DNA of 64,000 bases, taken from Pedobacter sp. MC2016-05. GTDB taxonomy: Bacteria; Bacteroidota; Bacteroidia; Sphingobacteriales; Sphingobacteriaceae. This document shows positions 23,598 through 40,974 of this stretch, piece after piece; the stretch's first letter is position 1; each line of letters starts with the position of its first letter. The position numbers and the translations under genes are program-made. The notes beneath the pieces were generated by a model, which saw only the letters and a program-made list of their open reading frames with translations, searched no databases and was not told the DNA's origin. The stretch lies in assembly GCF_026239735.1 (NCBI RefSeq), contig NZ_JAPIVT010000004.1, forward strand, positions 1 to 64,000. The letters run 5' to 3'.

Positions 23598-25430
23598 TTA
23601 CTTACCTACCCATTTTTTGAACACCGCTTTTTGTGCCGGCGTTGCATTCTGATTTATGGTAGCTTTTAAACGTACGCTAGGGTTTGCTTTCAAAGTAAGT
23701 GAAATCTCTTTCTCCAAACCATCACGTTTAATTTTAAGTTTCAACACATCGCCGATATTCTTCCCTGAAACAACAGGTAAGGTTTCTAATGATAACATCG
23801 GGCTTTTTAGTCTGACATTAGCCAAAGCATCGTTAACCGAAATGTTGTCTAACGAAATGATTTCATCATTAACATTCAAACCAGCAACCCAAGCAGCAGA
23901 ATTTCTAGTAATTGAAGAAACCGAAATCGTACCATTATTGGTTAACTGACCTGCGGCACCGCTTACCGGTTTATTAGGCGTTGCATTTTCTGTAGTCACA
24001 TCCACACCAGCGTATCCTAAATATTTCATATATTCTGCATCATCTACGCCATTAACATATTTAGCCCAAAAATTGGTGAAACTAATACCCGAAATTTTTT
24101 CGACCATTGCTTTAAATTCAGCATCGGTATAACCACGTTTTAAAGTTTTGCACTGTAAATACATGGCTTTCATCACGTCATCTAAACTTTTGGCACCTCT
24201 TGTTACATTGATAATTTCCAAATCCATCAATATTCCAATTACTTCACCTTTACTGTAATAAGAAATAGAATTATTTTTAGAGTTTTCGTTCGGACGGTAA
24301 CCAATAATCCAGGCATCATAACTAGAAGAAGCAGCTGATTGATATTTTGCTCCAGGCGTGTTAATCACCGTACCGATCGCGCCAGCAAGATCTTTCACAA
24401 AAGTAGCGTCATCGTTAAAACCCGCTCTGTGCATGTATTTATTTTCATAGTATGAAGTAAATCCTTCAGCCACCCAAAGGTTGGTGGTATAGTTTTCGTT
24501 GTCGTAATCAAACGGACCTAAAGCAACCGGGCGTAAACGCTTAACGTTCCATAAATGGTGATACTCATGGGCAACCAAAGCTAAAAAGCCTTTGTAACCT
24601 GCTTCGGTGTTGTAAGCATTTCGCGTAGCACCCAAAGTAGTAGAATTTAAATGCTCTAAACCACCGCCACCTCTTAAGAAGTTGTGAACGATGAAAGTGT
24701 AATGTTTGTTAGGATTTTCTCCATAAACCGCAGTAATTTCTTCTACAATTTTAGCCATATCCACTTTCAACTTCTCTTTATCATAATTACCGCCGCCATA
24801 CATGGCAACCTCATGACGAACACCAGCTGCATTAAATTCGAAAATATCCTGGTTACCTACCTCTATCGGGCTATCGTATAAAATATCGAAATCGCTTGCA
24901 CGGTAAGTAAACTGTTGACCAGCAACCGGCTCTAAACCTGTTGAAACTTTACTCCAGGTGTTGAATGGAATAATTTTAACTGTACTTGGTGATTTAATCA
25001 TTCCATCAGGATGCATAAAAATTCCTGTTGATGATAGAAAGGCATGAGATTCATCAATGAAAGGCGTACGTACCGAAATTTCGAAAGCGTAAACCCGGTA
25101 GTTAATTTTTATCTCAGCAGCTTTAGCAGAAAATATTCTCCAGGTATTTTTTCTCACTTTTTCAACACGGGCCTGCTTACCGCCAGCCGTTGCCTTAAAA
25201 TCTTCTACACTTTTCTCAAACTCGCGAACAAGATAAGAACCTGGAGTCCACACTGGCATTTTTACATCAACATAATCGTTTGCCAAACCAGAAATATTCA
25301 TCTGAACTTCAGCATAATGTGCTTGAGGCTCTTTAAAAGAAACCTCAAAAGCAATTTTTACTTGTGCATTTGCTGCCATAAAACATGTTAGTATTAAAAC
25401 TAAACTTAAAATTGATTTTTTGATTAACAT
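23598..25430 (-). CDS. M61-family peptidase with PDZ domain
   Basis: Secreted zinc metallopeptidase of the glycyl-aminopeptidase (M61) family. The chosen start at 25430 (MLIKKSIL) begins a clean signal peptide ending MAANAQ; the frame extends seven codons further to 25451. The peptidase domain has the zinc motif HEYHHLWNVKR (His-Glu-x-x-His at about residues 288-292 from the chosen start) with GGGGLEHLNS upstream, and a PDZ domain follows in the last 120 residues (AAWVAGLNVNDEIISLDNISV). About 610 residues is standard for the family. Probably periplasmic, trimming peptides. Single gene with a shared downstream terminator. Confidence 0.9.
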   Translation of the reverse strand: MLIKKSILSLVLILTCFMAANAQVKIAFEVSFKEPQAHYAEVQMNISGLANDYVDVKMPVWTPGSYLVREFEKSVEDFKATAGGKQARVEKVRKNTWRIFSAKAAEIKINYRVYAFEISVRTPFIDESHAFLSSTGIFMHPDGMIKSPSTVKIIPFNTWSKVSTGLEPVAGQQFTYRASDFDILYDSPIEVGNQDIFEFNAAGVRHEVAMYGGGNYDKEKLKVDMAKIVEEITAVYGENPNKHYTFIVHNFLRGGGGLEHLNSTTLGATRNAYNTEAGYKGFLALVAHEYHHLWNVKRLRPVALGPFDYDNENYTTNLWVAEGFTSYYENKYMHRAGFNDDATFVKDLAGAIGTVINTPGAKYQSAASSSYDAWIIGYRPNENSKNNSISYYSKGEVIGILMDLEIINVTRGAKSLDDVMKAMYLQCKTLKRGYTDAEFKAMVEKISGISFTNFWAKYVNGVDDAEYMKYLGYAGVDVTTENATPNKPVSGAAGQLTNNGTISVSSITRNSAAWVAGLNVNDEIISLDNISVNDALANVRLKSPMLSLETLPVVSGKNIGDVLKLKIKRDGLEKEISLTLKANPSVRLKATINQNATPAQKAVFKKWVGK

Positions 25431-25789
25431 ATTGGGGTATTTTGTCAGCAAAAATATGCTAATTGATGAAGTTTTTGAATTTTAAACGAAAATTAGATCG
25501 AGCCTGGGCATATAAAACTCTGAAGTCAGCTGTCATAAGTCTTAAGATATTATCGATAAACCATAGCCTTTGTGATAAAAGTTGATTTAAAAAGCATGGC
25601 AACTTATTCAAAAGGCATTTTATTAAATTAACAATCCATACTTTGGCCTACACGCTAAAGCCTTCAAATTAACTTGGTAACATCCTTAATACAACAAATT
25701 TAGGACTAAACTATTTGAATATTTTTACACTCTTATTCTTACGTTAATTCAATTTTAAACGTTCAGATAAGTACGACACAAATATAAAC
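25431..25789. other. Intergenic region upstream of the efflux operon
   Basis: About 360 A+T-rich bases between divergent genes. It must hold promoters for both, but no TAnnTTTG box with correct spacing was found, nor any repeat, hairpin or short gene. Confidence 0.5.
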
Positions 25790-26887
25790 ATGAAGAAAAG
25801 GTATATTTTTTATGCTGTTTTTGCTATTGGCTTGGCCTATTTAGTATACTACAGAATTAACGCAAACAAAAAATTAGAAGGTAAAGGCGGGGCTGCTGGC
25901 GCTTCTGCTAAAGGTGGGGCTGGCAAAGGTGGAGCTGCAGGCGCACCCATGGTTGTTGATGGTATTGTGGTAAAACCAACATCATTTAATAACGACCTCG
26001 AAGTAACCGGAGCCATTGAAGCCAATGAATCTGTAGTGCTAAAAAGTGAGGTTGCGGGTTTGGTAACTGGAATTTATTTTAAAGAAGGAACCAATGTAGC
26101 TAAAGGATCAGTATTGGTTAAAATTAACGACAGAGATATTCAGGCACAATTACAGGAAGCCTTAACCAAACAAAAACTATCTGGCACTACCGAAAACAGG
26201 TCGAAACAATTGCTGGAAAAAGGCGCAATCAGTCAGGAGGAGTACGATATCTCACTTGCCGATTTGAGATCGCTACAATCGCAAACGCAATTAATTAGGG
26301 CACAATTGGCTAAAACAACTATCCGAGCTCCATTTTCGGGCAGAATTGGTTTAAGAAGTATTTCTGCAGGAACATATTTAACACCTTCTACTGTCATCGC
26401 AAACCTGGTAAACACCAATCCGGTTAAAGTTACATTTTCGGTGCCTGAAAAATATGCAGGGCAGATTAACCTGGGCTCATCAATCGCATTTAAAACCGAT
26501 GGGTCTTCAAAACAAAATACAGGGAAAGTATATGCCATAGAACCTGGAATAAATACAGCCACTAGAACACTGCAAATTAGGGCATTAGCGCCTAATGCAG
26601 ATAACAGCTTGTTACCAGGCTCATTTGCCAAGATAAAGCTTGCACTAAACACCCTTCAAAATGCTATTCTTATTCCTAACCAGGCCATTATTCCGGTTTT
26701 GAAAGGTAAAATTGTTTACATCAAGAAAAACGGAAAAGCCCAGGAAGTGAAGGTAGAAGCCGGAACGCGGACAGATGAAAACATTGTAATAACTTCTGGT
26801 CTTAAAGCTGGCGATACGGTTTTAACCACTGGCTCAATGGCCTTAAAAAAAGATGCTCCTGTGAAAGTAAATCTGGTTAAAGAATAA
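25790..26887 (+). CDS. RND efflux periplasmic adaptor (HlyD/MdtA family)
   Basis: Membrane fusion protein linking the inner membrane RND pump to the outer membrane channel. An N-terminal membrane anchor (about 3-22) is followed by an unusual Gly/Ala/Lys low-complexity linker (about 34-54, units like GGAAGA and KGGAGK). Then come the lipoyl halves (VVLKSEVAGLVTGIYFKEG and TTIRAPFSGRIGLRSISAG), a short helical hairpin at about 115-165, and beta-barrel and membrane-proximal domains to residue 365. There is no lipobox. It starts an operon with the RND permease two bases downstream and TolC after that. The hairpin is short, as in MdtA-like adaptors. Substrate unknown. Confidence 0.92.
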   Translation: MKKRYIFYAVFAIGLAYLVYYRINANKKLEGKGGAAGASAKGGAGKGGAAGAPMVVDGIVVKPTSFNNDLEVTGAIEANESVVLKSEVAGLVTGIYFKEGTNVAKGSVLVKINDRDIQAQLQEALTKQKLSGTTENRSKQLLEKGAISQEEYDISLADLRSLQSQTQLIRAQLAKTTIRAPFSGRIGLRSISAGTYLTPSTVIANLVNTNPVKVTFSVPEKYAGQINLGSSIAFKTDGSSKQNTGKVYAIEPGINTATRTLQIRALAPNADNSLLPGSFAKIKLALNTLQNAILIPNQAIIPVLKGKIVYIKKNGKAQEVKVEAGTRTDENIVITSGLKAGDTVLTTGSMALKKDAPVKVNLVKE

Positions 26888-26889
26888 TT

Positions 26890-29800
26890 ATGAGTATCTC
26901 TACAACGAGCATAAAAAGGCCTGTTCTTGCCATTGTAATGAACCTGCTGATTGTCCTTTTCGGGATAATTGGTTATACATTTCTGGGCGTAAGGGAATTT
27001 CCTTCTATCGATCCGACAGTGGTTTCGGTGCGAACCTCCTACCCTGGAGCAAACTCTGATATCATTGAATCGCAGATTACGGAGCCTCTGGAAAAATCAA
27101 TCAACTCAATTGATGGGATTCGGAATATTTCTTCTTCAAGCAACCAGGGAACAAGTAACATTACAGTAGAGTTTAACCTCGATAAAAACATTGAGGAAGC
27201 AACAAATGATGTTCGCGATAAAGTTTCGCAGGCAGCAAGAAATTTACCCCGCGATATTGATGGTTTGCCAATTGTAAGCAAAGCTGATGCAAACTCTGAT
27301 CCTATCCTTTCCATGACGATACAGAGTGATAAGCGTAATACCTTGCAGCTTAGTGATTTTGCCGAAAATGTGATTGCCGATCGGATCCAAACCATTCCTG
27401 GTGTGAGTAGTGTACAAATTCAGGGACAACGGAAATATTCCATGCGAATCTGGATGGATCCAAATAAGTTAAGTGCCTACGGACTCACCTCTCAAGACAT
27501 TGTAACCGCACTAGATAATGAAAACGTAGAGCTGCCTTCGGGAAAAATTACAGGCGAAACGACCGAACTTACCGTGAAAACTTTGGGTAAACTGGTTAAT
27601 GAAGAACAGTTCAATAATCTGATTCTTAAATCAGATAGCAACCAGGTTGTTAAGCTTAAGGATGTTGGTTATGCAACTTTAGGCTCGGAAAATGAAGAAA
27701 CTGTGTTACGTGAATCTGGTAAACCAATGGTTGCCGTAGCCATCATTCCTCAACCTGGAGCTAATTACCTCGATATCAGTAAAGAATTTTATAATCGTTT
27801 TGATAAACTAAAGGCAGATATGCCTGATGACATTAAGCTGAATGTTTCGCTGGATAATACGTTATTTATTAAAAGATCGGTAACAGAGGTGGCTGAAACC
27901 ATCGGCCTATCCTTAGTTTTGGTAATCTTAATTATTTATCTTTTCTTCAGAGACTGGGGAATTGCTTTCAGACCGCTCATTGATATACCGGTATCCTTAA
28001 TTTTCACTTTTTTTGTGATGTACGCCTTCGGGTTTTCGATTAATGTTTTGAGTTTACTGGCAATTGTTTTAGCCACCGGTTTAGTGGTTGATGATGGGAT
28101 TGTAGTTACTGAAAACATTTTCAAAAAGGTTGAGGAAGGGATGTCGCCATTTGAAGCAGCAATTAAGGGCTCAAATGAAATTTTCTTTGCGGTAATATCC
28201 ATCTCTATCACACTTGCAGCTGTTTTCTTACCTGTAATTTTTTTACAGGGATTTGTTGGGAGATTATTTAGAGAGTTTGGAGTGGTAATTGGTGCCGCGG
28301 TATTAATTTCTGCCTTTGTATCGTTAACGTTAACTCCAATGTTAAATGCCTATCTGATGAAAAAGGGGGGGCATAAACCTTCTAAATTTTATAATTGGAC
28401 AGAGCCTTATTTCATTAAACTTAACGATGCTTATGCATCCAATCTGAATAAATTTTTAGATAAACGATGGCTTTCTATTCCCATTATTGTGGTATGTATG
28501 GGTTTGATTTTCTTATTCTGGAAGTTGTTGCCTAAAGAAACGGCCCCCTATGATGATCGAAGTGCTATCAATATGACGGCAACTTTGCCCGAGGGTGCGT
28601 CATTTACCTCGACAGATAAATTCATCATGAAATTAAATCAAATGGTGATCGATTCCGTTTCGGAGAAGAATGTAAATATTACCATTACAGCACCTGGTTT
28701 TGGTGGTGCGGGTTCAACAAATATGGGTTTCGTGAGGATGGGTTTGGTTGACCCTGAAAAACGTGAACGTTCGCAGAAAGAAATTGCTGACATGCTCACG
28801 AAAATCACGAAAAAATATACCGAAGGTAAAGTGATTGTTAATCAGCAGCCGACTATTTCTGTGGGTAGAAGAGGTGGTTTACCCATCAGTTATATCATTC
28901 AGGCACAAAATTTCGAAAAGTTAAGAGAGAAAGTACCTTTATTTATGGAAGCTGTTGCCAAAGATCCAACTTTTACTGTATCTGATGTTAACTTAAAATT
29001 CAATAAGCCAGAAATCAACCTGACTATAGATCGGGATAAAGCTAAAAACCTTGGTGTATCAATTTCTGCCATTGCACAAACGCTAAACCTCGGTTTAAGC
29101 GGTCAAAGGTTCTCTTACTTCTTTATGAATGGCAAACAATATCAGGTAATTGGTCAGTTTGACCGTGGCGATAGGAAAGATCCTTTGGATTTAAGTTCAG
29201 TTTACGTTCGTAGTGATAAAGGCGAATTAATCCAGCTTGATAATTTGGTTACGGCAAAAGAAGAAAGCAGTCCACCGCAATTATATAGAAATAATCGCTT
29301 CATTTCTGCAACCGTTTCTGCAGGTTTGGCACCAGGCAAAAGCATTGGCGAAGGAATAGATGCCATGGATAAAATTGCCGCCAGCGTTTTAGATGAGACT
29401 TTCTCTACCGATTTAAGCGGCGAATCAAGAGATTTTAAAGAAAGTTCTTCAAATACATTTTTCGCTTTTGGCTTAGCATTGTTGTTGGTTTATTTAATTT
29501 TATCAGCACAATTTGAAAGTTTTAAAGATCCTATCATTATCATTTTGACTGTTCCAATGGCGGTTGCAGGGGCATTTTTATCGCTTTGGTTGTGCGGTCA
29601 AAGCTGGAACATCTTCAGTCAGATTGGAACCATTATGCTAATTGGCTTGGTTACCAAAAATGGTATCTTAATCGTTGAGTTTGCCAATCAGCTAAAAGAA
29701 AAAGGTATGGCCATACCGGAGGCCATCCGCGAAGCATCGGTTTCTCGTTTACGTCCAATCTTAATGACTAGTTTGGCCATTGCCATAGGTGCACTGCCTA

Positions 29801-30000
29801 TCGCCCTGGCTTTGGGCGCGGCAGCAAAAAGCAGAATGAGTATGGGGACCGTAATTGTAGGCGGAACTTTATTTTCGCTGGTATTAACCCTTTTTGTAAT
29901 CCCAGCAATTTACTCGTACTGGGCAAAACCATACAAACCAAATAAACAACTAAAAGATGCTGACCGTTTTGAGCAAGAGGCAACACATATAGCAGAATAA
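26890..30000 (+). CDS. RND efflux pump permease (AcrB/MdtB type)
   Basis: Proton-driven inner membrane transporter, 1036 residues, with the typical plan of one membrane helix, a large periplasmic loop, six helices, a second large loop and five helices. The proton-relay aspartate pair is present in ATGLVVDDGIVVTENIF (about residues 397-413), and the HAE-1-like signatures FREFGVVIGAAVLISAFVSLTLTP (split across helices) and TKNGILIVEFANQ are clear. It sits two bases after the adaptor and one base before the tolC-like gene. The set would export drugs or toxic compounds; the substrate cannot be predicted. Confidence 0.95.
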   Translation: MSISTTSIKRPVLAIVMNLLIVLFGIIGYTFLGVREFPSIDPTVVSVRTSYPGANSDIIESQITEPLEKSINSIDGIRNISSSSNQGTSNITVEFNLDKNIEEATNDVRDKVSQAARNLPRDIDGLPIVSKADANSDPILSMTIQSDKRNTLQLSDFAENVIADRIQTIPGVSSVQIQGQRKYSMRIWMDPNKLSAYGLTSQDIVTALDNENVELPSGKITGETTELTVKTLGKLVNEEQFNNLILKSDSNQVVKLKDVGYATLGSENEETVLRESGKPMVAVAIIPQPGANYLDISKEFYNRFDKLKADMPDDIKLNVSLDNTLFIKRSVTEVAETIGLSLVLVILIIYLFFRDWGIAFRPLIDIPVSLIFTFFVMYAFGFSINVLSLLAIVLATGLVVDDGIVVTENIFKKVEEGMSPFEAAIKGSNEIFFAVISISITLAAVFLPVIFLQGFVGRLFREFGVVIGAAVLISAFVSLTLTPMLNAYLMKKGGHKPSKFYNWTEPYFIKLNDAYASNLNKFLDKRWLSIPIIVVCMGLIFLFWKLLPKETAPYDDRSAINMTATLPEGASFTSTDKFIMKLNQMVIDSVSEKNVNITITAPGFGGAGSTNMGFVRMGLVDPEKRERSQKEIADMLTKITKKYTEGKVIVNQQPTISVGRRGGLPISYIIQAQNFEKLREKVPLFMEAVAKDPTFTVSDVNLKFNKPEINLTIDRDKAKNLGVSISAIAQTLNLGLSGQRFSYFFMNGKQYQVIGQFDRGDRKDPLDLSSVYVRSDKGELIQLDNLVTAKEESSPPQLYRNNRFISATVSAGLAPGKSIGEGIDAMDKIAASVLDETFSTDLSGESRDFKESSSNTFFAFGLALLLVYLILSAQFESFKDPIIIILTVPMAVAGAFLSLWLCGQSWNIFSQIGTIMLIGLVTKNGILIVEFANQLKEKGMAIPEAIREASVSRLRPILMTSLAIAIGALPIALALGAAAKSRMSMGTVIVGGTLFSLVLTLFVIPAIYSYWAKPYKPNKQLKDADRFEQEATHIAE

Positions 30001-30001
30001 G

Positions 30002-31312
30002 ATGAGTAAGCAACTAACCATATCCATACTTTTTTGGTGCCTATCCATTTCCGGCTTTGCACAGGAAAAACTCAGCTTGCGGGAAGCCATCACCATTGCG
30101 CTTCAAAATAACTACGACATAAAAATCAGCAAGAACGAAATCAAGATTGCGCAAAACAACGCTAACGTTGGCAACGCAGGGATGCTGCCCACCATTGATG
30201 GGGTTTACAGTAACGGTGGAAGCATTCAAAATACCAGGCAAACACCCGTAACCGGAGAAGACAGAGTGATTCGCGGAGCGAGAAGTACCAATAATAGTTA
30301 TGGCGCCGATTTAAACTGGACAATCTTTGATGGCTTTACAATGTTTGCCAACTACGATCGTTTAAAAGAATTACAGAAACAAGGAGAAATAAATGCCCGG
30401 CTTACCATTCTAACTACCGTAGCTGATGTAATTACAGCTTATTATGATATCGTAAGGCAACAACAATTACTGGTAGCCGCCGATAGTGCCATTGACGTTT
30501 CGCTATGGCGCGGCAATATCGCTAAAACTAAATTACAACTGGGACGAGGGTCAAAATTAGACGTATTAACTGCCCAGGTAGATTATAATACCGATACTTC
30601 GAACTTCATTCAAATTAAGAATTTTCTTCAGGTGGCTAAGGTTCGTTTAAATCAGTTATTGGTTAGAGATATTAGCACTGACTTTACTGTTGCAGACAGT
30701 ATAGATGTTGATAAGGGAATTCTATTTAGCAAACAGGCAGAACTTGCGGAGCTACAAAATCCAAACGTACAAAATGCGTTTATCAATCAAAAAATTGCTT
30801 CATTAAACCTCAAAGCCATTAAAGGGGCAAGATATCCGGCAATTAGTTTGAACTCGGGTTACAGTAGGGCCAAAAGCACAAGTCCGACAGGGTTTAACCA
30901 GCGTTTTGCAGCAAATGGTTTTACCTACGGGGTAACGGCCAGTTTAAATTTATTTAATGGTTTTTTGCAGCGTCAACAAGAGCGCAATGCCAAAATCGAC
31001 ATTGAAAATTCATCGCTGAATTTGAGCAAAACTAAACTTGATGTAAAGTCACAATTGTTAACCGCGTACCAAAACTACGCAACCTATCTTGATTTGATTA
31101 AACTGGAACAACGTAACGTAGATATTGCGAAAGAGAATTTAGATATTACCATGGCCAAATATAAATTAGGAAGTATTGCCCCGTTGGAGCTTAGAGAGGC
31201 ACAACGCAATGCCATTGACGCAAAAAATCGTTTTATCGAGATGCAATATCAGGCTAAAATTGCAGAAACCACCTTGAAAGAGATTAGTGGCAACGTAGAT
31301 TTATCCAATTAA
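30002..31312 (+). CDS. TolC-family outer membrane efflux protein
   Basis: 436-residue outer membrane channel component. Signal peptide ending SGFAQEK (about residue 20), then two outer membrane efflux protein repeats (about 25-215 and 235-430) rich in long helices, for example LSLREAITIALQNNYDIKISKNEIKIA in the first and LDITMAKYKLGSIAPLELREAQ in the second. No lipobox cysteine. Begins one base after the RND permease stop codon, so it is translationally linked and completes the tripartite pump. Confidence 0.93.
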   Translation: MSKQLTISILFWCLSISGFAQEKLSLREAITIALQNNYDIKISKNEIKIAQNNANVGNAGMLPTIDGVYSNGGSIQNTRQTPVTGEDRVIRGARSTNNSYGADLNWTIFDGFTMFANYDRLKELQKQGEINARLTILTTVADVITAYYDIVRQQQLLVAADSAIDVSLWRGNIAKTKLQLGRGSKLDVLTAQVDYNTDTSNFIQIKNFLQVAKVRLNQLLVRDISTDFTVADSIDVDKGILFSKQAELAELQNPNVQNAFINQKIASLNLKAIKGARYPAISLNSGYSRAKSTSPTGFNQRFAANGFTYGVTASLNLFNGFLQRQQERNAKIDIENSSLNLSKTKLDVKSQLLTAYQNYATYLDLIKLEQRNVDIAKENLDITMAKYKLGSIAPLELREAQRNAIDAKNRFIEMQYQAKIAETTLKEISGNVDLSN

Positions 31313-31329
31313 TTTTTATATTTATTCCT

Positions 31330-32223
31330 ATGATACTTGTTGCAGATAGTGGCTCTTCGAAAACAGATTGGATGGGCTATCTTAATGGCGAAACCATAAA
31401 ATTTAACACTCCCGGTATAAATCCTTACTTTTTAAGCGAGCAGGATATTAGCAAGCTAATTTCGAAAAACGAAACGGTGATGCAATATGCAGAACAAGTA
31501 AAAGAGATATACTTTTTCGGTGCAGGTTGTTCGTCGCCTGATAAGCACGAGGTGGTATCGAATGGCTTATCGGAGATATTTAAAAACGCTTTTATTTCAG
31601 TAGATCATGATCTTTTAGGATCCGTTTATGCTACTTGTGGCAATGCAGAAGGATTGAATTGTATTTTAGGCACTGGCTCAAACATTTGTTATTTCGATGG
31701 TAAAAAAATCCACGATGGCCATCATGGTTTAGGTTATGTTCTAGGTGATGAAGGCTCTGGAACATTTTTCGGTAAAAAAGTATTGCTTGCTTATTTATAC
31801 AACAAAATGCCCTCCGGTTTAGCCGCAACGTTTAAAAAAGCTTTCCCGACAGAAAAAGACCAGATTATTACTAATGTATATCAGAAACCTTTTCCAAACA
31901 TTTATTTGGCCAGCTTTAGCCGTTTTATGGCCAGTAACAGAGAACATCCTTTTATTCAGGATATTTTAAGAACAGGCTTTCAAGAATTTGTTGATACCAA
32001 TATAAAAGATTATCCAAAGCATAAAGATGTTCCTTGTCATTTTGTAGGTTCGATAGCTTTTTACTATCAAGATGAGTTGGTGGAAGTTTTGCAAGCTAAT
32101 GGAATTGAGCCAGGCAAAATTTTACAAAAGCCAATAGAAGACTTGTTTAACTTCATTCTTCAAAAGGAAGGAATTGTACAACAAGCTGGCGAAACCGATA
32201 GCATTATTTCTAAGATAAACTAA
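31330..32223 (+). CDS. N-acetylglucosamine kinase-like protein (BadF/BadG/BcrA/BcrD ATPase family)
   Basis: ASKHA-fold sugar kinase of 297 residues. The phosphate-1 loop is VADSGSSKTDW (residues about 4-14), a phosphate-2-like loop is LGTGSNICYFDG, and the adenosine region includes GLGYVLGDEGSGTFFGKK. The family phosphorylates N-acetylglucosamine or glucosamine from cell-wall recycling or chitin. It lies 17 bases after the tolC-like gene and may ride on the efflux transcript, though a functional link is not obvious. Cytoplasmic. Substrate specificity is inferred from family only. Confidence 0.85.
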   Translation: MILVADSGSSKTDWMGYLNGETIKFNTPGINPYFLSEQDISKLISKNETVMQYAEQVKEIYFFGAGCSSPDKHEVVSNGLSEIFKNAFISVDHDLLGSVYATCGNAEGLNCILGTGSNICYFDGKKIHDGHHGLGYVLGDEGSGTFFGKKVLLAYLYNKMPSGLAATFKKAFPTEKDQIITNVYQKPFPNIYLASFSRFMASNREHPFIQDILRTGFQEFVDTNIKDYPKHKDVPCHFVGSIAFYYQDELVEVLQANGIEPGKILQKPIEDLFNFILQKEGIVQQAGETDSIISKIN

Positions 32224-35114: not shown

Positions 35115-35603
35115 TTAACTGGCTACAGACTTTTGCTCAACGTTAAAGTAATCTTTATGTTCTTCAATCAATTTTGCAATTGTCGCAGCTTTAGTATCAG
35201 TAATTTTAAACTCAAATAATGGCTGCTGATTTTTTTTCGATTTAACCATTTTCTCGGTATAGAAGCGATAAACCAAACCATTTGTGAGCAAACCGTATTT
35301 TGCCTTAGTTTTACGAAAATACTTTGATAAACGAGAATCGTGGATATCAAGACTATCCTCATGGTGCTTACATTCCACCAAAATAGTTGGCTCACCATCT
35401 TTCATAATGGTGTAGTCTACTTTCTTACTTTTTTTAACACCAAAATCCAAAACCGCTTCAGATTGAACTTCTGAAGGATCAAATCCTAAAATTTGAATAA
35501 ATGGCATTACCAATGCATTCCTGGTTAAGTCTTCATTTTGAACTTGAGGAAGCATCTTCTTAATTCTTACTGCAAACTGACCGATTTCGTCTTTAAGTTC
35601 CAT
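35115..35603 (-). CDS. Orphan type I restriction HsdR N-terminal-like nuclease domain protein
   Basis: 162-residue protein made of the HsdR-N (HSDR_N_2) domain alone. The PD-(D/E)xK layout is visible: D63 in KKVDYTIM and E77/K79 in ILVECKHH, followed by the helix with DSRLSKYFRKT and the strand YGLLTNGLVYRFY. There is no helicase part and no hsdM or hsdS nearby, so this is not a restriction system as such. Single-domain proteins like this are widespread in Bacteroidota with no known role. It has its own terminator and stands alone. Confidence 0.82.
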   Translation of the reverse strand: MELKDEIGQFAVRIKKMLPQVQNEDLTRNALVMPFIQILGFDPSEVQSEAVLDFGVKKSKKVDYTIMKDGEPTILVECKHHEDSLDIHDSRLSKYFRKTKAKYGLLTNGLVYRFYTEKMVKSKKNQQPLFEFKITDTKAATIAKLIEEHKDYFNVEQKSVAS

Positions 35604-35999: not shown

Positions 36000-36743
36000 A
36001 TGAATCTAAAATGCGTTGTCATCGATGACGAACAACATGCGATTGAGGTACTTACAGACCATATAGCAGAAATGCCTGGACTAACAGTATTCAAGACTTT
36101 TACAAGTCCAGTTCAAGCCTTAACCGAAATTAGCATTGACGACGAGATAGATCTCCTCTTCATGGATATTGATATGCCTGGAATTAATGGCTTAGAACTT
36201 GCCAAAAATATCCGAGAGAAAGCTAAGTATTTAGTTTTCACTACCGCACATCCTGACTATGCTTTACAAGCTTTTGATGTTCAATCAGATCAATATCTAT
36301 TAAAGCCAATTTCATTTGCCAAATTTGCTTTAGGTATTGATAGAATTTTGAAGAAGGAGGCAAATAATGCCAAAGCTACTTCAAAAGATGCCGAACAGGT
36401 GGCGGCGCTTTATATCAAAGGCGACCACAAATATGCTTTTTCCAATATTGCTATTGATGAAATACTTTACATAAAAGCACTTCAGAATTATATTCAAATC
36501 ATTACCAAGGGTGAAACGCACACCACTTACCTTACACTAAAGGAGATTGAAAAAGCTTTAGAGAACCACGCATTTATTAGAGTTAATAAATCGAATATAG
36601 TTGCTAAAGCAGCAATCAAAAAGGTAGATGGAAATATAATCCGTCTTGTAAATAATGAAATGATTCAGATTGGCGAAGGCTACAAAGAAGCTTTCTTCGC
36701 CTACGTACAAAGTAGCTTATTGAAATCAAATAGAAGTCAATAA
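36000..36743 (+). CDS. LytTR-family response regulator
   Basis: 247 residues: a receiver domain (1-120) with acidic residues in VVIDDE, phospho-acceptor D56 in LLFMDIDMPG and K102 in LLKPIS, then a LytTR DNA-binding domain at about 140-240 (IDEILYIKALQNYIQI, LKEIEKALENHAFIRVNKSNIV). LytTR regulators bind direct repeats upstream of targets and usually pair with LytS/AgrC-type kinases; the matching kinase is at 37017-38138. Its stop codon directly abuts the 3' end of the small opposite-strand gene at 36744-36884. Confidence 0.93.
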   Translation: MNLKCVVIDDEQHAIEVLTDHIAEMPGLTVFKTFTSPVQALTEISIDDEIDLLFMDIDMPGINGLELAKNIREKAKYLVFTTAHPDYALQAFDVQSDQYLLKPISFAKFALGIDRILKKEANNAKATSKDAEQVAALYIKGDHKYAFSNIAIDEILYIKALQNYIQIITKGETHTTYLTLKEIEKALENHAFIRVNKSNIVAKAAIKKVDGNIIRLVNNEMIQIGEGYKEAFFAYVQSSLLKSNRSQ

Positions 36744-36884
36744 TTATACTTCAAAAATAAAACTTGTAACAACTGAATGGCTCATATCTCCGGTTGGATT
36801 AGTAGCGTAGTTATTTTTAGCTTTAATGTTTTTATAAACGAACACAGCTTTTTTTGTGATTTTTGAAGTGTTTTGAGTTTTCAT
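36744..36884 (-). CDS. Candidate RiPP or signal-peptide precursor (46 residues)
   Basis: Short ORF read from the sequence. It starts MKTQNTSKITKK, has a basic and aromatic middle (AVFVYKNIKAK), and a C-terminal part with NPTGDMSHSVVTS rich in Thr and Ser, ending FIFEV. It contains no cysteine, no double-glycine leader and no signal peptide. The N-terminal half is Lys-rich (leader-like); the C-terminal half has six Ser/Thr that a LanB enzyme could modify. It lies between a LytTR regulator and its kinase and 1.2 kb from a full-length LanB dehydratase. Codon use and composition differ from random ORFs only subjectively, so a chance ORF is possible. No known precursor family is recognised. Confidence 0.55.
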   Translation of the reverse strand: MKTQNTSKITKKAVFVYKNIKAKNNYATNPTGDMSHSVVTSFIFEV

Positions 36885-37016
36885 AATCTGATAAATTTAA
36901 TTGTTATTATTAATTTCTGTAAAGGTGCAACGTAAATTCATGTTCAACTATTTTTTTACACAAACACATGTTTTTAACAGATAAAAACCCATTTTAAGTA
37001 GATATAACGCTAAAAA

Positions 37017-38138
37017 ATGAACTTAAGAGCATTAAAAAACTTCTATAACATATATCAAATTCACCTTATAATTTGGAGTATTTATATCGTATATGAAGTG
37101 TTTGTGTTAGGACTTATCACTAACAAATTCAGAGAGCCTGGCGCTTATGTCTTAGTATATATAATTAATATAATCACTTTCTACTCCTATGCATATTTAT
37201 TAAAAAACATCTTAAACCGGGATAGTAAGGCGTATCGTTTCATCAAAATATTGGTGCTAATATCAATCATAATTTGTGGATACATTTTCTTAACCTATGC
37301 CTTCATAATATTATTTGAAAAACTCCAGCTACTCGAAGCTAATCCCAGCAGAAGCTTAGATAAGGAGTTCATACTGTCTTGTCTTTATAGATCTCTTTTG
37401 TATATCGGTTTTTCTACTGGTTATGTTTACATTTTAAAATCTTTTGAAGATAGAAAAAAGGTGGAGGCTTTGGAACGTCAAAGTCTCGTTACACAAATAG
37501 AAAAACAGGCTTTAGAGAATGATTTGGTTCAATCGCAAAATAACTTTCTTCGGAGCCAGATCAACCCTCACTTTCTGTTTAATACCTTAAATTTTATATA
37601 CAACGACGCCCGTAAAAAAGCACCAATGGCTGCTGATGCGATCATGAACCTAGCCGAAATGATGCGCTATGCTTTAAAGAGGCCAGAAGCATCGGAAATG
37701 GTTCCATTGAGTGAGGAAGTAGAACAAATTGAACACTTAATCAACCTTCATCAGCTCAGAACAGCAAATGCTATTAATTTAAATTTAGAGGTTAATGGTG
37801 ATTTGTTTGGCTTAAGGTTTCCGCCACTTATCTTATTAACCCTTGTAGAAAATATATTCAAGCATGGCAATGTGACTCACTCCACGCAACCGGCTATCAT
37901 TAAAATTGATTATGAGAACAATAATTTAAACATCAGCACCATTAATATGGTGAATGATAATAAAGGAAAAGAACATGAAAGTCACCACGTTGGTATCGAC
38001 AACATCAATAAAAGGCTAGCCAATTTTTACAAGGATGATTATATTTTCAGATACTACAAAGACCCGTTGAATAGATATATAACGGAAATAGATGTGCAGG
38101 TAATTAATCCGATGTCTAAATTAAACCTCAACCAATAG
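37017..38138 (+). CDS. LytS/YehU-type sensor histidine kinase
   Basis: 373 residues. Four membrane-spanning segments at about 15-35, 43-63, 76-100 and 122-141, then a linker coiled coil and a His_kinase domain with the phospho-acceptor H185 in SQINPHFLFNTLNFI, followed by an HATPase_c region with LVENIFKHG and HHVGIDNINKRL. It is the likely partner of the LytTR regulator at 36000. It reads toward the LanB gene and overlaps its 3' end by 11 bases. There is no large extracellular sensor domain; the signal would be read within or close to the membrane, as for AgrC- or YehU-type kinases. Confidence 0.93.
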   Translation: MNLRALKNFYNIYQIHLIIWSIYIVYEVFVLGLITNKFREPGAYVLVYIINIITFYSYAYLLKNILNRDSKAYRFIKILVLISIIICGYIFLTYAFIILFEKLQLLEANPSRSLDKEFILSCLYRSLLYIGFSTGYVYILKSFEDRKKVEALERQSLVTQIEKQALENDLVQSQNNFLRSQINPHFLFNTLNFIYNDARKKAPMAADAIMNLAEMMRYALKRPEASEMVPLSEEVEQIEHLINLHQLRTANAINLNLEVNGDLFGLRFPPLILLTLVENIFKHGNVTHSTQPAIIKIDYENNNLNISTINMVNDNKGKEHESHHVGIDNINKRLANFYKDDYIFRYYKDPLNRYITEIDVQVINPMSKLNLNQ

Positions 38139-40911
38139 CTCTTCTACGTTGAAGGTCCTTAAGTAAGAAATAATACATTACCATTTCATTCGTCCGTTGA
38201 TCTTTGTTGAACAATCGGTTAACATGCATGTGCATTAGATCAGTAAAGAGTTTTACTTTTCTGTTCCCGTCAGTTAATTTAAGTACGCCGATAAATGATT
38301 GCCTAAAACGGTCGAAATTTTCGTTTTGTTTTGGATCAAAATTTGGCGCAGTTTTATATTGTTGATATTGCTGGTTGAGTTTTTTGAAATCTGTCGCATC
38401 CAAATGATGCTCTTTATTGAATGAATCGGAAATCATTCTTGTTACTTTCAGCATCACTTCAGAATCGAAAACGCCAGCTTTTAACAGTTCATCTACCAAA
38501 TAAGAACACCATTTATACTTGGTAAAAGCATCTGTTTGCTGCTGCAACTGCGATAGAACAAAATCACTATCAATAGAGAAATGATTTTCAACATCCGAAA
38601 TGATTTCTGCTCCATATCTTTCCAACTCTCGCCGGTAGGTTTTTAATTGAAAATCTGAAACCAAACCACTCGCCATATAATCCTTCAGAAGATCGCCTAG
38701 CGCAGAAACCAATGCTTGTCCGTCTTCGTTGTTGTGCAGTAAAATCCTCAAACGCAAATGGTTTCCATTTTCATTGTACCTGATAAAAAACCACGATCTT
38801 ATCTGCGCTGAAAATTGATTTAAGAAAGATGGGATCACCCCAATTAACAATTCATCGGAACGCTGTTGATGGCAATAAATTTCGAAATATAGCCACTCCT
38901 TTCCCGGAAGAAATACCTTTTGAACAGGAATTGCATTATTACTGCTAATTTCTGTTTTTTTGTAAATGCTATTGTTATGATACAGGTTTAAAATAAATTG
39001 ACTTACATAAGGACTTTGCGCCTGATTTACAATAACATCATTTTTGGGCAAGATGACTTCCTCTAAATATAATTTATTCTGCTTTTGGATAAATTGAAGA
39101 AAAGCATTCAAATCCTCATCACTATCTAAACCAAAGCATAAAGTTTGATCTGACAAACCCGCTTTAAAGTACTTGCTTACTCCGATTTGCGTAAGATAAG
39201 AACGACAATCTTCCATAGAGACGGCTGTTTTATTGGGGTAGAAATGTGTTTTGCTTACTCGCCATTTTGCACCGCTTAATACAATATTATGAAACTGAAA
39301 GCGAGGATAAAAGTCCAGATCGGGAAAGATACTATCAAGGGATAGTGATAGGGAAGTTTGCAGACCCTGATGTTGCAAATCGCACAAGAGCCTAAACACC
39401 GACAAATCTGACCGGGTGTAATTATAAGCCGAAGCCATGCGGGGAATAAGCCTTTTATTTAAGCTCTTTGATCTAAGAATGACTTCGTTATTACTCACCG
39501 AAATTTGAATATCACCTAGTGAAAGAGGTGCTGATGATATATCGAAATTCAGTATGGATAACTGGTGCCCGTAAATCTGCTTTCTACGATTGATATTATC
39601 CACATTGGTTTCAACGAGGTAGGCAACATCAAAAAAAAGCACCTCCGGGTTTGCATTTTGCTCAATGGCCGAAGTTTCTACGCAAAACCGTTCTACAGCT
39701 TTATCGGCGATAGAAAAGCGCCCGGTTAAAGCATTTGCCGTTACACCACCAATTTGATCAACACAAATTAAATCATCCGCTAACGACATCAAAAAGCTAA
39801 ATGAGTTTGGCAGAATGCTTTCACTTTCATTTGTTTCAAACGCAAGCTTATTCAAATAAATAGGCTCCTTGTTTTCAAAACCAGCTACAGAAAGTTTGGT
39901 TTTTAATGTTGATTTCAGATCTTGTTTGTCTTCAGCATTCTTTTTCTTCGAATTAAACTGCGCTACAAAATCATCTTCGCTTACCTGCTCCAATTCATCG
40001 TAGCCCACACCCATTTCAGGGTCGAGTGCGATGGAAAGCGGAACTTCCTGCTGATCGAATTTATTCTTGAATCTCGAAATAAAGCTTTTTAGCGCTTCAC
40101 GTTCATCAGATTGCAAGATTTTCGATAAAAGATCGATCAGTGTCGGTATCGGCTTCAATAAACGCTCATCTAAACCGCCAACAATTACTTTTCTTTCTGC
40201 AATTAAATATTTTGGGAGATTGCTGTCATCGATTCCAATTCTTTCGAAATAATCTTCCCCTATCACATTAGGATCGAACTCCGTAAAAAGAAGTTGGATG
40301 GAGTGCATATCCTGAAGCAATTCTAAAAATTCTACCTTACCCGCTTCATCTACACCCAGCGTGTTAATCAAATCATTTACCGCAATCGGTTTGGCACATG
40401 ATTCGAGAATTTGCATTACAGATTCATTTTGATCAATCTCTGCCAGTTCAAAAACCCCTTCCGTGCAGGCAATATACCTGATGCTGTTGATTGTTGAATA
40501 ATAGCTAGTGTTGCTGAACAGCTGAACGTTATCAGCCATCAATTTCTCGAAATCAAAATGAAGTTCATTCCGATATGGCCAATCAATAAACTGATGTACA
40601 ATCTGCTCATTGTTTACAATGATTTTGCTTTCGCTTTCATTAAAGGCATTTGCCAAAAAGCTGAAACTTGCAAATGTGCCATAGGGTGTTGAGCGATATT
40701 TCGCCCGGTTAAAATATTTCCAAACTGTGAAAAAAATCTTTGGCGGCAGGTTTTTCAGTTCATGAGCTTCTACGTCTTTTATGGTTTCGTAAAAGGTAGA
40801 TGATGAAATGGAAATGGCTTTTTTAAGTTCATCCCAACTACTTTCAAGATCAGCTTGATATGAAAATTTCGGCGTTCTGAAAATAATGGAGGGATGAATC
40901 AGGGGTTTCAT
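38128..40911 (-). CDS. LanB-type lantibiotic dehydratase, full length and apparently orphan
   Basis: 927 residues, the size of class I lanthipeptide dehydratases. The N-terminal glutamylation domain has RSTPYGTFASF at 73-83, the family's R-x-T-P-[FY]-G site. The C-terminal elimination domain runs from about 672: WLYFEIYC, the WFFIRYNENGNHLRLR string at about 707-722, YRRELERYG at 759-767 and HMHVNRLF at 894-901. Established family chemistry: Ser/Thr are glutamylated from glutamyl-tRNA and then eliminated to dehydroamino acids. No lanC, peptidase or exporter gene is adjacent. Upstream is a 115-base gap without a clear promoter; an AATCTTTG string on the minus strand lies near 40943. Candidate substrate: the 46-residue ORF at 36744. 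Confidence 0.88.
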   Translation of the reverse strand: MKPLIHPSIIFRTPKFSYQADLESSWDELKKAISISSSTFYETIKDVEAHELKNLPPKIFFTVWKYFNRAKYRSTPYGTFASFSFLANAFNESESKIIVNNEQIVHQFIDWPYRNELHFDFEKLMADNVQLFSNTSYYSTINSIRYIACTEGVFELAEIDQNESVMQILESCAKPIAVNDLINTLGVDEAGKVEFLELLQDMHSIQLLFTEFDPNVIGEDYFERIGIDDSNLPKYLIAERKVIVGGLDERLLKPIPTLIDLLSKILQSDEREALKSFISRFKNKFDQQEVPLSIALDPEMGVGYDELEQVSEDDFVAQFNSKKKNAEDKQDLKSTLKTKLSVAGFENKEPIYLNKLAFETNESESILPNSFSFLMSLADDLICVDQIGGVTANALTGRFSIADKAVERFCVETSAIEQNANPEVLFFDVAYLVETNVDNINRRKQIYGHQLSILNFDISSAPLSLGDIQISVSNNEVILRSKSLNKRLIPRMASAYNYTRSDLSVFRLLCDLQHQGLQTSLSLSLDSIFPDLDFYPRFQFHNIVLSGAKWRVSKTHFYPNKTAVSMEDCRSYLTQIGVSKYFKAGLSDQTLCFGLDSDEDLNAFLQFIQKQNKLYLEEVILPKNDVIVNQAQSPYVSQFILNLYHNNSIYKKTEISSNNAIPVQKVFLPGKEWLYFEIYCHQQRSDELLIGVIPSFLNQFSAQIRSWFFIRYNENGNHLRLRILLHNNEDGQALVSALGDLLKDYMASGLVSDFQLKTYRRELERYGAEIISDVENHFSIDSDFVLSQLQQQTDAFTKYKWCSYLVDELLKAGVFDSEVMLKVTRMISDSFNKEHHLDATDFKKLNQQYQQYKTAPNFDPKQNENFDRFRQSFIGVLKLTDGNRKVKLFTDLMHMHVNRLFNKDQRTNEMVMYYFLLKDLQRRRAIG

Positions 40912-40974
40912 AGAGATATTTTATTGGGCGAAAATTACAAAGATTAATATTAAAACCCACATGGTATATAAAGT

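Follow-up and report, generated by a model that had tools for sequence, protein, structure and literature searches.

In the Agr system of staphylococci (AgrBDCA), a peptide precursor, a modifying enzyme, a membrane kinase and a LytTR regulator of the AgrA type form one circuit; the regulator is constant, the sensor and the peptide are variable and are exchanged as coupled allele groups, and LytTR-like direct repeats lie upstream of the peptide gene. We find these features again in a locus of Pedobacter sp. MC2016-05, situated in a stretch of 64,000 nucleotides, which as a whole is called the window below. The two systems also differ. In Pedobacter the modifier is a LanB dehydratase, neither a protease nor an exporter, which does not co-vary with the peptide type; the peptide, unlike AgrD, has no Cys that could form a thiolactone; the kinase is a PF06580 protein with four transmembrane (TM) helices; the peptide gene lies antiparallel between the genes of the response regulator (RR) and the histidine kinase (HK); and several parallel cassettes occur per genome in a Gram-negative host. 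A scan of flanking genes in the window turned up no AgrB-like gene, nor does the conserved neighbourhood contain one. As neither AgrB nor the cysteine of AgrD is present, the sequences indicate that the Pedobacter circuit works like Agr, yet is not a member of it.

The other obvious comparison is with the class I lantibiotics, for which NisRK-type autoinduction is established. The Pedobacter locus shares with class I lanthipeptides a precursor made up of leader and core, encoded next to a full-length LanB that keeps the catalytic residues of NisB, and, as we infer, two-component autoregulation. It has, unlike them, no LanC, Cys, LanT, LanP or immunity genes, and its regulator is of the LytTR type, whereas that of NisRK is of the OmpR type. 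With both LanC and a core Cys missing, the system does not, by its gene content, qualify as a lanthipeptide system proper. A product carrying dehydrobutyrine or dehydroalanine (Dhb/Dha) without thioether would rather be expected, as with linaridins and thiopeptide-type dehydratases. Linaridins are made by other enzymes, and thiopeptides by a LanB in split form together with azole and pyridine enzymes; to our knowledge neither is known as a two-component signal. Within the genus, Pedobacter lusitanus NL19 makes class I lanthipeptides, the PedA peptides, which, as cited in PMC12328550, are lanthionine-ringed; on that description they share with the present peptides a LanB-dependent precursor and differ in their rings, the present family being nearly always Cys-free.

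A sequence-only reading of this DNA had proposed that the four roles of peptide signalling in Firmicutes are filled here by a LytTR regulator, a membrane kinase, a small peptide and LanB. The unit as such is supported by synteny, promoter repeats, co-occurrence and coupled swaps; LanB, however, is unlike AgrB, and the predicted product is no lanthionine peptide. We think it likely that the locus is an Agr-like, autoinducing (quorum-sensing-type) peptide two-component circuit of Pedobacter and related Bacteroidota, with a LanB-dehydrated, non-lanthionine signal. The features are as follows.

36000..36743, plus strand: LytTR response regulator, 247 aa, with receiver and LytTR DNA-binding domain (Pfam; 93% mean identity, 18 orthologues)
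36744..36884, minus strand: peptide precursor, 46 aa, Cys-free, leader MKTQNTSKITKKAVFVYK followed by a Thr/Ser-bearing core ending in ...ATNPTGDMSHSVVTSFIFEV
36919..36929, minus strand: conserved element TGCACCTTTAC of the peptide promoter, probable -7 region of Bacteroidota type
36955..37010, minus strand: three imperfect direct repeats in steps of 21 and 22 bp, candidate LytTR site; the copies are GCGTTATATC (37010-37001), GGTTTTTATC (36989-36980) and GTGTTTGTGT (36967-36958)
37017..38138, plus strand: histidine kinase, whole gene (PF06580 His_kinase, E 2e-21)
37017..37436, plus strand: sensor domain of the kinase, four TM, residues 1-140, swapped among allele types
37437..38138, plus strand: cytoplasmic part of the kinase (DHp + CA), conserved (Pfam PF06580, fold match)
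38128..40911, minus strand: LanB dehydratase, 927 aa, with glutamylation and elimination domains, convergent with the kinase
40929..40947, minus strand: conserved LanB promoter TTAATCTTTGTAATTTTCG, constitutive-looking, no conserved LytTR repeat upstream

As read earlier, regulator and kinase are on one strand, and the gap between them, of exactly 273 bases, contains the opposite-strand ORF of 46 codons (36744-36884). The regulator matches Response_reg (PF00072, E 6e-17) and LytTR (PF04397, E 8e-17). The label LytS given to the kinase was right about a membrane His_kinase and otherwise loose, this being a 4-TM PF06580 protein and not the 5TM LytS of Firmicutes; its cytoplasmic domain has a fold match to those of GanS and AgrC. 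On the upstream side of the regulator the window carries HtpG and then an HSDR_N-like protein, and the order HtpG / HSDR_N / RR / peptide(s) / HK / LanB is preserved at 17 same-genus loci, the LanB proteins of which are 52-60% identical. Regulator and kinase were not found conserved without the small ORF or LanB: all genomes with close orthologues of the two (87%/60% or more) carry both LanB and peptide. The HSDR_N-like protein (35115-35603) is a stand-alone PD-D/E-XK protein, kept between HtpG and the regulator in close relatives.

The small ORF does not look like a chance one, since antiparallel homologues, in 1 to about 7 tandem copies, fill the RR-HK gap in 17 of 17 close orthologues, pN/pS in close pairs is low (leader 0.19, core 0.13), and the family is missing where LanB is missing (0 of 11 same-genus genomes without LanB, profile search; Fisher p = 2e-7). 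By these comparisons the ORF is a genuine gene, kept by purifying selection. A peptide occupies the RR-HK gap at 66 of 80 LanB loci in named genomes of Pedobacter, Mucilaginibacter, Sphingobacterium, Olivibacter, Taibaiella and others. The peptides share a leader of the pattern K(L/I)xKKTxF(V/I)(Y/F)(K/R) and a Thr-rich core, often with (S/T)DPTxTxT, and Cys is absent from 118 of the 121 distinct peptides located between RR and HK. For the peptides searched, Pfam, NCBIfam and PHROGs gave no family match, and the ORF, judged by sequence, founds an undescribed, nearly always Cys-free family of RiPP precursors, new to these three collections. The family may have been passed over because large-scale lanthipeptide mining (Walker 2020, PMC7268733) searched by way of LanC and set aside precursors lacking Cys.

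Some loci depart from this pattern. In a distant variant clade of Mucilaginibacter, Pedobacter and Taibaiella (L198-L204, L214) the genes run LanB-RR-HK and the peptide gene diverges from that of the kinase; several of the clade's peptides have a single terminal Cys (e.g. ...TLPTVSKTC, ...TTSINCTV), which makes a one-ring product possible; no LanC was found among the neighbouring genes scanned at L200, L203 and L204. The RR-HK pair stands in the same genomic context in L064, which has the peptide (G007), and in L072 and L073, which have none and a gap of 88-92 bp (G026 and G009); this difference is a gain or loss of the peptide.

LanB aligns with NisB over most of its length and matches both dehydratase domains in Pfam (Lant_dehydr_N, E 5e-57; Lant_dehydr_C, E 2e-56). 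In the alignment its R69, R73, R720, R722, E762, R765 and H896 correspond to R83, R87, R784, R786, E823, R826 and H961 of NisB; these seven active-site residues are invariant in a divergent set of 21 sequences, and T75 (NisB T89) is nearly so. The AlphaFold model (pLDDT 84) matches the folds of MadB, NisB and MibB (E 2e-41 to 2e-34). Because the enzyme keeps the catalytic residues of NisB and a fold like those of NisB, MadB and MibB, dehydration of Thr/Ser is expected, as far as sequence and model can tell. LanC (PF05147) had no match in the genome of Pedobacter sp. MC2016-05, nor in the locus-bearing genomes G003, G005, G007, G008, G010, G011 and G020, and a LanC acting in trans was rejected on this account. 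With a precursor devoid of Cys and a genome devoid of LanC, the predicted product is not a lanthionine peptide. As a side observation, a longer LanB subfamily (about 1000 aa) also stands beside an RR-HK pair at L074-L082, in HK-RR order, with a related peptide at L077.

The locus holds no exporter or protease gene. Peptidase_C39 (PF03412) had no match in the source genome, G003 or G008, and a C39 peptidase transporter (PCAT, double-glycine export) was rejected as the exporter, being absent from the genome. A rival reading makes the peptide first and foremost a bacteriocin with nisin-like autoinduction, i.e. a dehydrated antimicrobial which induces its own synthesis via its kinase, the signalling being incidental. 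The full-length LanB with its conserved active site and the tandem copies of the precursor would fit this, and so would the NisRK-type autoinduction known in general from class I lantibiotics. We hold it to be unlikely, given that the locus has no immunity gene, exporter or LanC and the precursor no Cys, that kinase and regulator (PF06580, LytTR) are not of the NisK/NisR type, and that one LanB is common to several cassettes per genome.

Two-turn (21-22 bp) spacing of direct repeats is the geometry of LytTR regulator sites. That repeats of this type would be found upstream of 36884, as had been anticipated, was confirmed: over 46 peptide promoters 21 bp is the strongest of all direct-repeat periods upstream of the peptides (z 8.7), with z 5.7 in orphan cassettes and z 7.0 in LanB-linked ones, the window's own copy being degenerate. 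Examples from other cassettes are TTGCGTAA-N13-TTGCGTAA (C22) and CCACGG-N15-CCACGG (C21), and orphan cassettes have TAnTTTnC at the place equivalent to TGCACCTTTAC. The corresponding expectation for LanB failed, as upstream of 40911 no repeats are conserved and the gene has a constitutive-looking promoter of its own; LanB was therefore rejected as a member of the regulon, its promoter being conserved yet without conserved repeats. The window's promoter pattern, TGTGTAAA-N22..45-GCAYCTTTA, occurs once in the genome, thus no wider regulon was found genome-wide with it. Copies of the TTGCGTAA repeat that are perfect or nearly so stand at the peptide promoters of C22 and C17, and an equally good match exists at C12:319176; weaker matches in the genome were not above the reversed control.

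The peptide profile finds four family peptides in the source genome: that of the window and those on C21, C22 and C17. The C21 and C22 copies have the arrangement RR> peptide< HK> without an adjoining LanB, and C17 has RR and peptide plus the N-terminal part of the matching kinase, which runs off the contig edge. More than 30 such orphan RR-peptide-HK cassettes were read across the genus. The proposal that LanB is the peptide's modifier agrees with its position next to the peptide and with their co-occurrence; the assignment is not exclusive, as the three other RR-peptide-HK cassettes lack a neighbouring LanB. Four cassettes, a single LanB in the genome and no peptide in the 11 LanB-less genomes suggest that LanB probably serves several precursors in trans. 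A bolder version, to which we would give slightly less than an even chance, is multi-channel RiPP quorum sensing in Bacteroidota: one constitutive LanB would dehydrate the Cys-free precursors of independent cassettes, every cassette having a promoter repeat and a sensor allele to itself, so that parallel languages would arise from the one enzyme, with recombination-driven pherotype switching. Arrays of another kind were seen at L070 (G006:C1, about 4759000-4770500) and L071 (G023:C2, about 25200-31800), where 6-8 related kinases stand in tandem behind one LytTR regulator; neither array has a recognisable peptide or LanB.

The most telling observation is that peptide and sensor are exchanged jointly. 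Across 18 orthologues, identity is 93% for the regulator, about 91% for the kinase core (residues 161-280) and about 43% (30-56%) for the sensor (1-120). Compared with Pedobacter sp. Leaf41, the LanB of which is 95% identical to the window's, DNA identity stays high for HtpG (95%), RR (98%), the kinase domain (96%), HSDR_N (within 95-98%) and LanB (94.5%), and drops for the sensor (57%), the promoter (73%) and the peptide gene (81%). In 24 close pairs, sensors at least 79% identical go with cores 76-100% alike, and sensors at most 64% identical with cores 38-68% alike (Spearman 0.57, p 0.004, the pairs not being independent); core versus kinase and core versus RR correlations were not significant in these pairs, and the sensor/core split is not mirrored in regulator, kinase domain or LanB. 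The partial Mantel statistic for core and sensor is 0.63-0.66, that for core and kinase -0.04 to 0.25 and not significant. In every swapped pair the breakpoint between sensor and kinase domain falls at residue 121-141, near 140, and this boundary is the end of TM4, the fourth TM helix in the structure model. At 75% DNA identity 41 genomes contain 26 sensor types versus 4 kinase types. L197 has the kinase type of L194 (90%), yet the sensor type and core pattern of a nine-member group. Such a joint swap of peptide and sensing half among relatives is what is expected of a bacterial cell-to-cell signal.

Sensor variability is also seen (59% vs 96%), with one sensor replacement, in a control kinase that has no such peptide, so sensor divergence alone was rejected as proof and only the coupled swap is used as an argument here. 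The sensor of this control gave a partial Mantel value of 0.31 (p 0.016) against the peptide core, which is a sign of residual background in the test; a second control kinase had no orthologues. In the orphan cassettes, which are distantly related, covariation specific to the sensor did not reach significance. A single recombination tract can replace neighbouring loci together whether or not they are functionally coupled, and peptide, regulator and kinase could merely be linked in a fast-evolving spot, the joint swap being hitch-hiking and the kinase sensing something else. The variable sensor of the control would suit this explanation, which we nevertheless find very improbable: the same arrangement with homologous peptides recurs at more than 30 unlinked orphan positions, one promoter-repeat period runs across all groups, every swapped pair breaks at the same sensor/kinase junction, and the RR and LanB flanks are not swapped.

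Co-variation of peptide and sensor would also be seen if the peptide were an internal, non-exported microprotein that binds the TM sensor of its own kinase as co-factor or inhibitor, LanB being a neighbour for another reason or an internal modifier; that export machinery was not identified, either among the genes of the locus or in the C39 search of the genome, is in line with this. The peptide family is, however, missing wherever LanB is missing, which argues that LanB is part of the circuit, and both the fast diversification into allele types typical of extracellular signals and the tandem amplification up to about 7 copies speak against a microprotein. We regard it as improbable.

The circuit that we favour, an Agr-like one with a dehydrated linear signal, draws its support from anatomy, conservation, repeat periodicity, LanB active-site residues, coupled peptide/sensor swaps and co-occurrence, all read from sequence; for modification, export, ligand binding, the sign of regulation and the output we infer the following course. 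The precursor would be recognised through its conserved basic/aromatic leader KKxxFVYK, and LanB would glutamylate Thr/Ser of the core, elimination then yielding dehydro-residues. Without Cys and LanC the product would remain a linear dehydropeptide, trimmed and exported by factors encoded outside the locus. The four-TM sensor would detect the mature core, the kinase would then phosphorylate the LytTR regulator, and the phosphorylated regulator would bind the repeats 5' of the peptide gene, raising peptide production in a positive feedback. LanB, which has a separate promoter, would be common to the paralogous RR-peptide-HK cassettes of the same genome.

In the open-access full-text literature we found no description of a peptide-pheromone two-component circuit in Bacteroidota. 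If our reading is true, this is a kind of cell-to-cell signal not earlier recognised in this bacterial group, in a circuit which spans Sphingobacteriaceae and related taxa; it would bring allele switching of the agr/com type to soil Gram-negatives, and we propose a non-antibiotic role for stand-alone LanB enzymes. Another LytTR-paired kinase, at G000:C34:167484 (L124; orthologues L144-L159), stands by a divergent gene that encodes a membrane peptide of 60 aa (MKKLANTSPFLLLL...) and by a gene for an ABC transporter, and in one genome its sensor domain has been replaced (58% vs 94%); this kinase and the membrane peptide are possibly a second kind of peptide-sensing pair.
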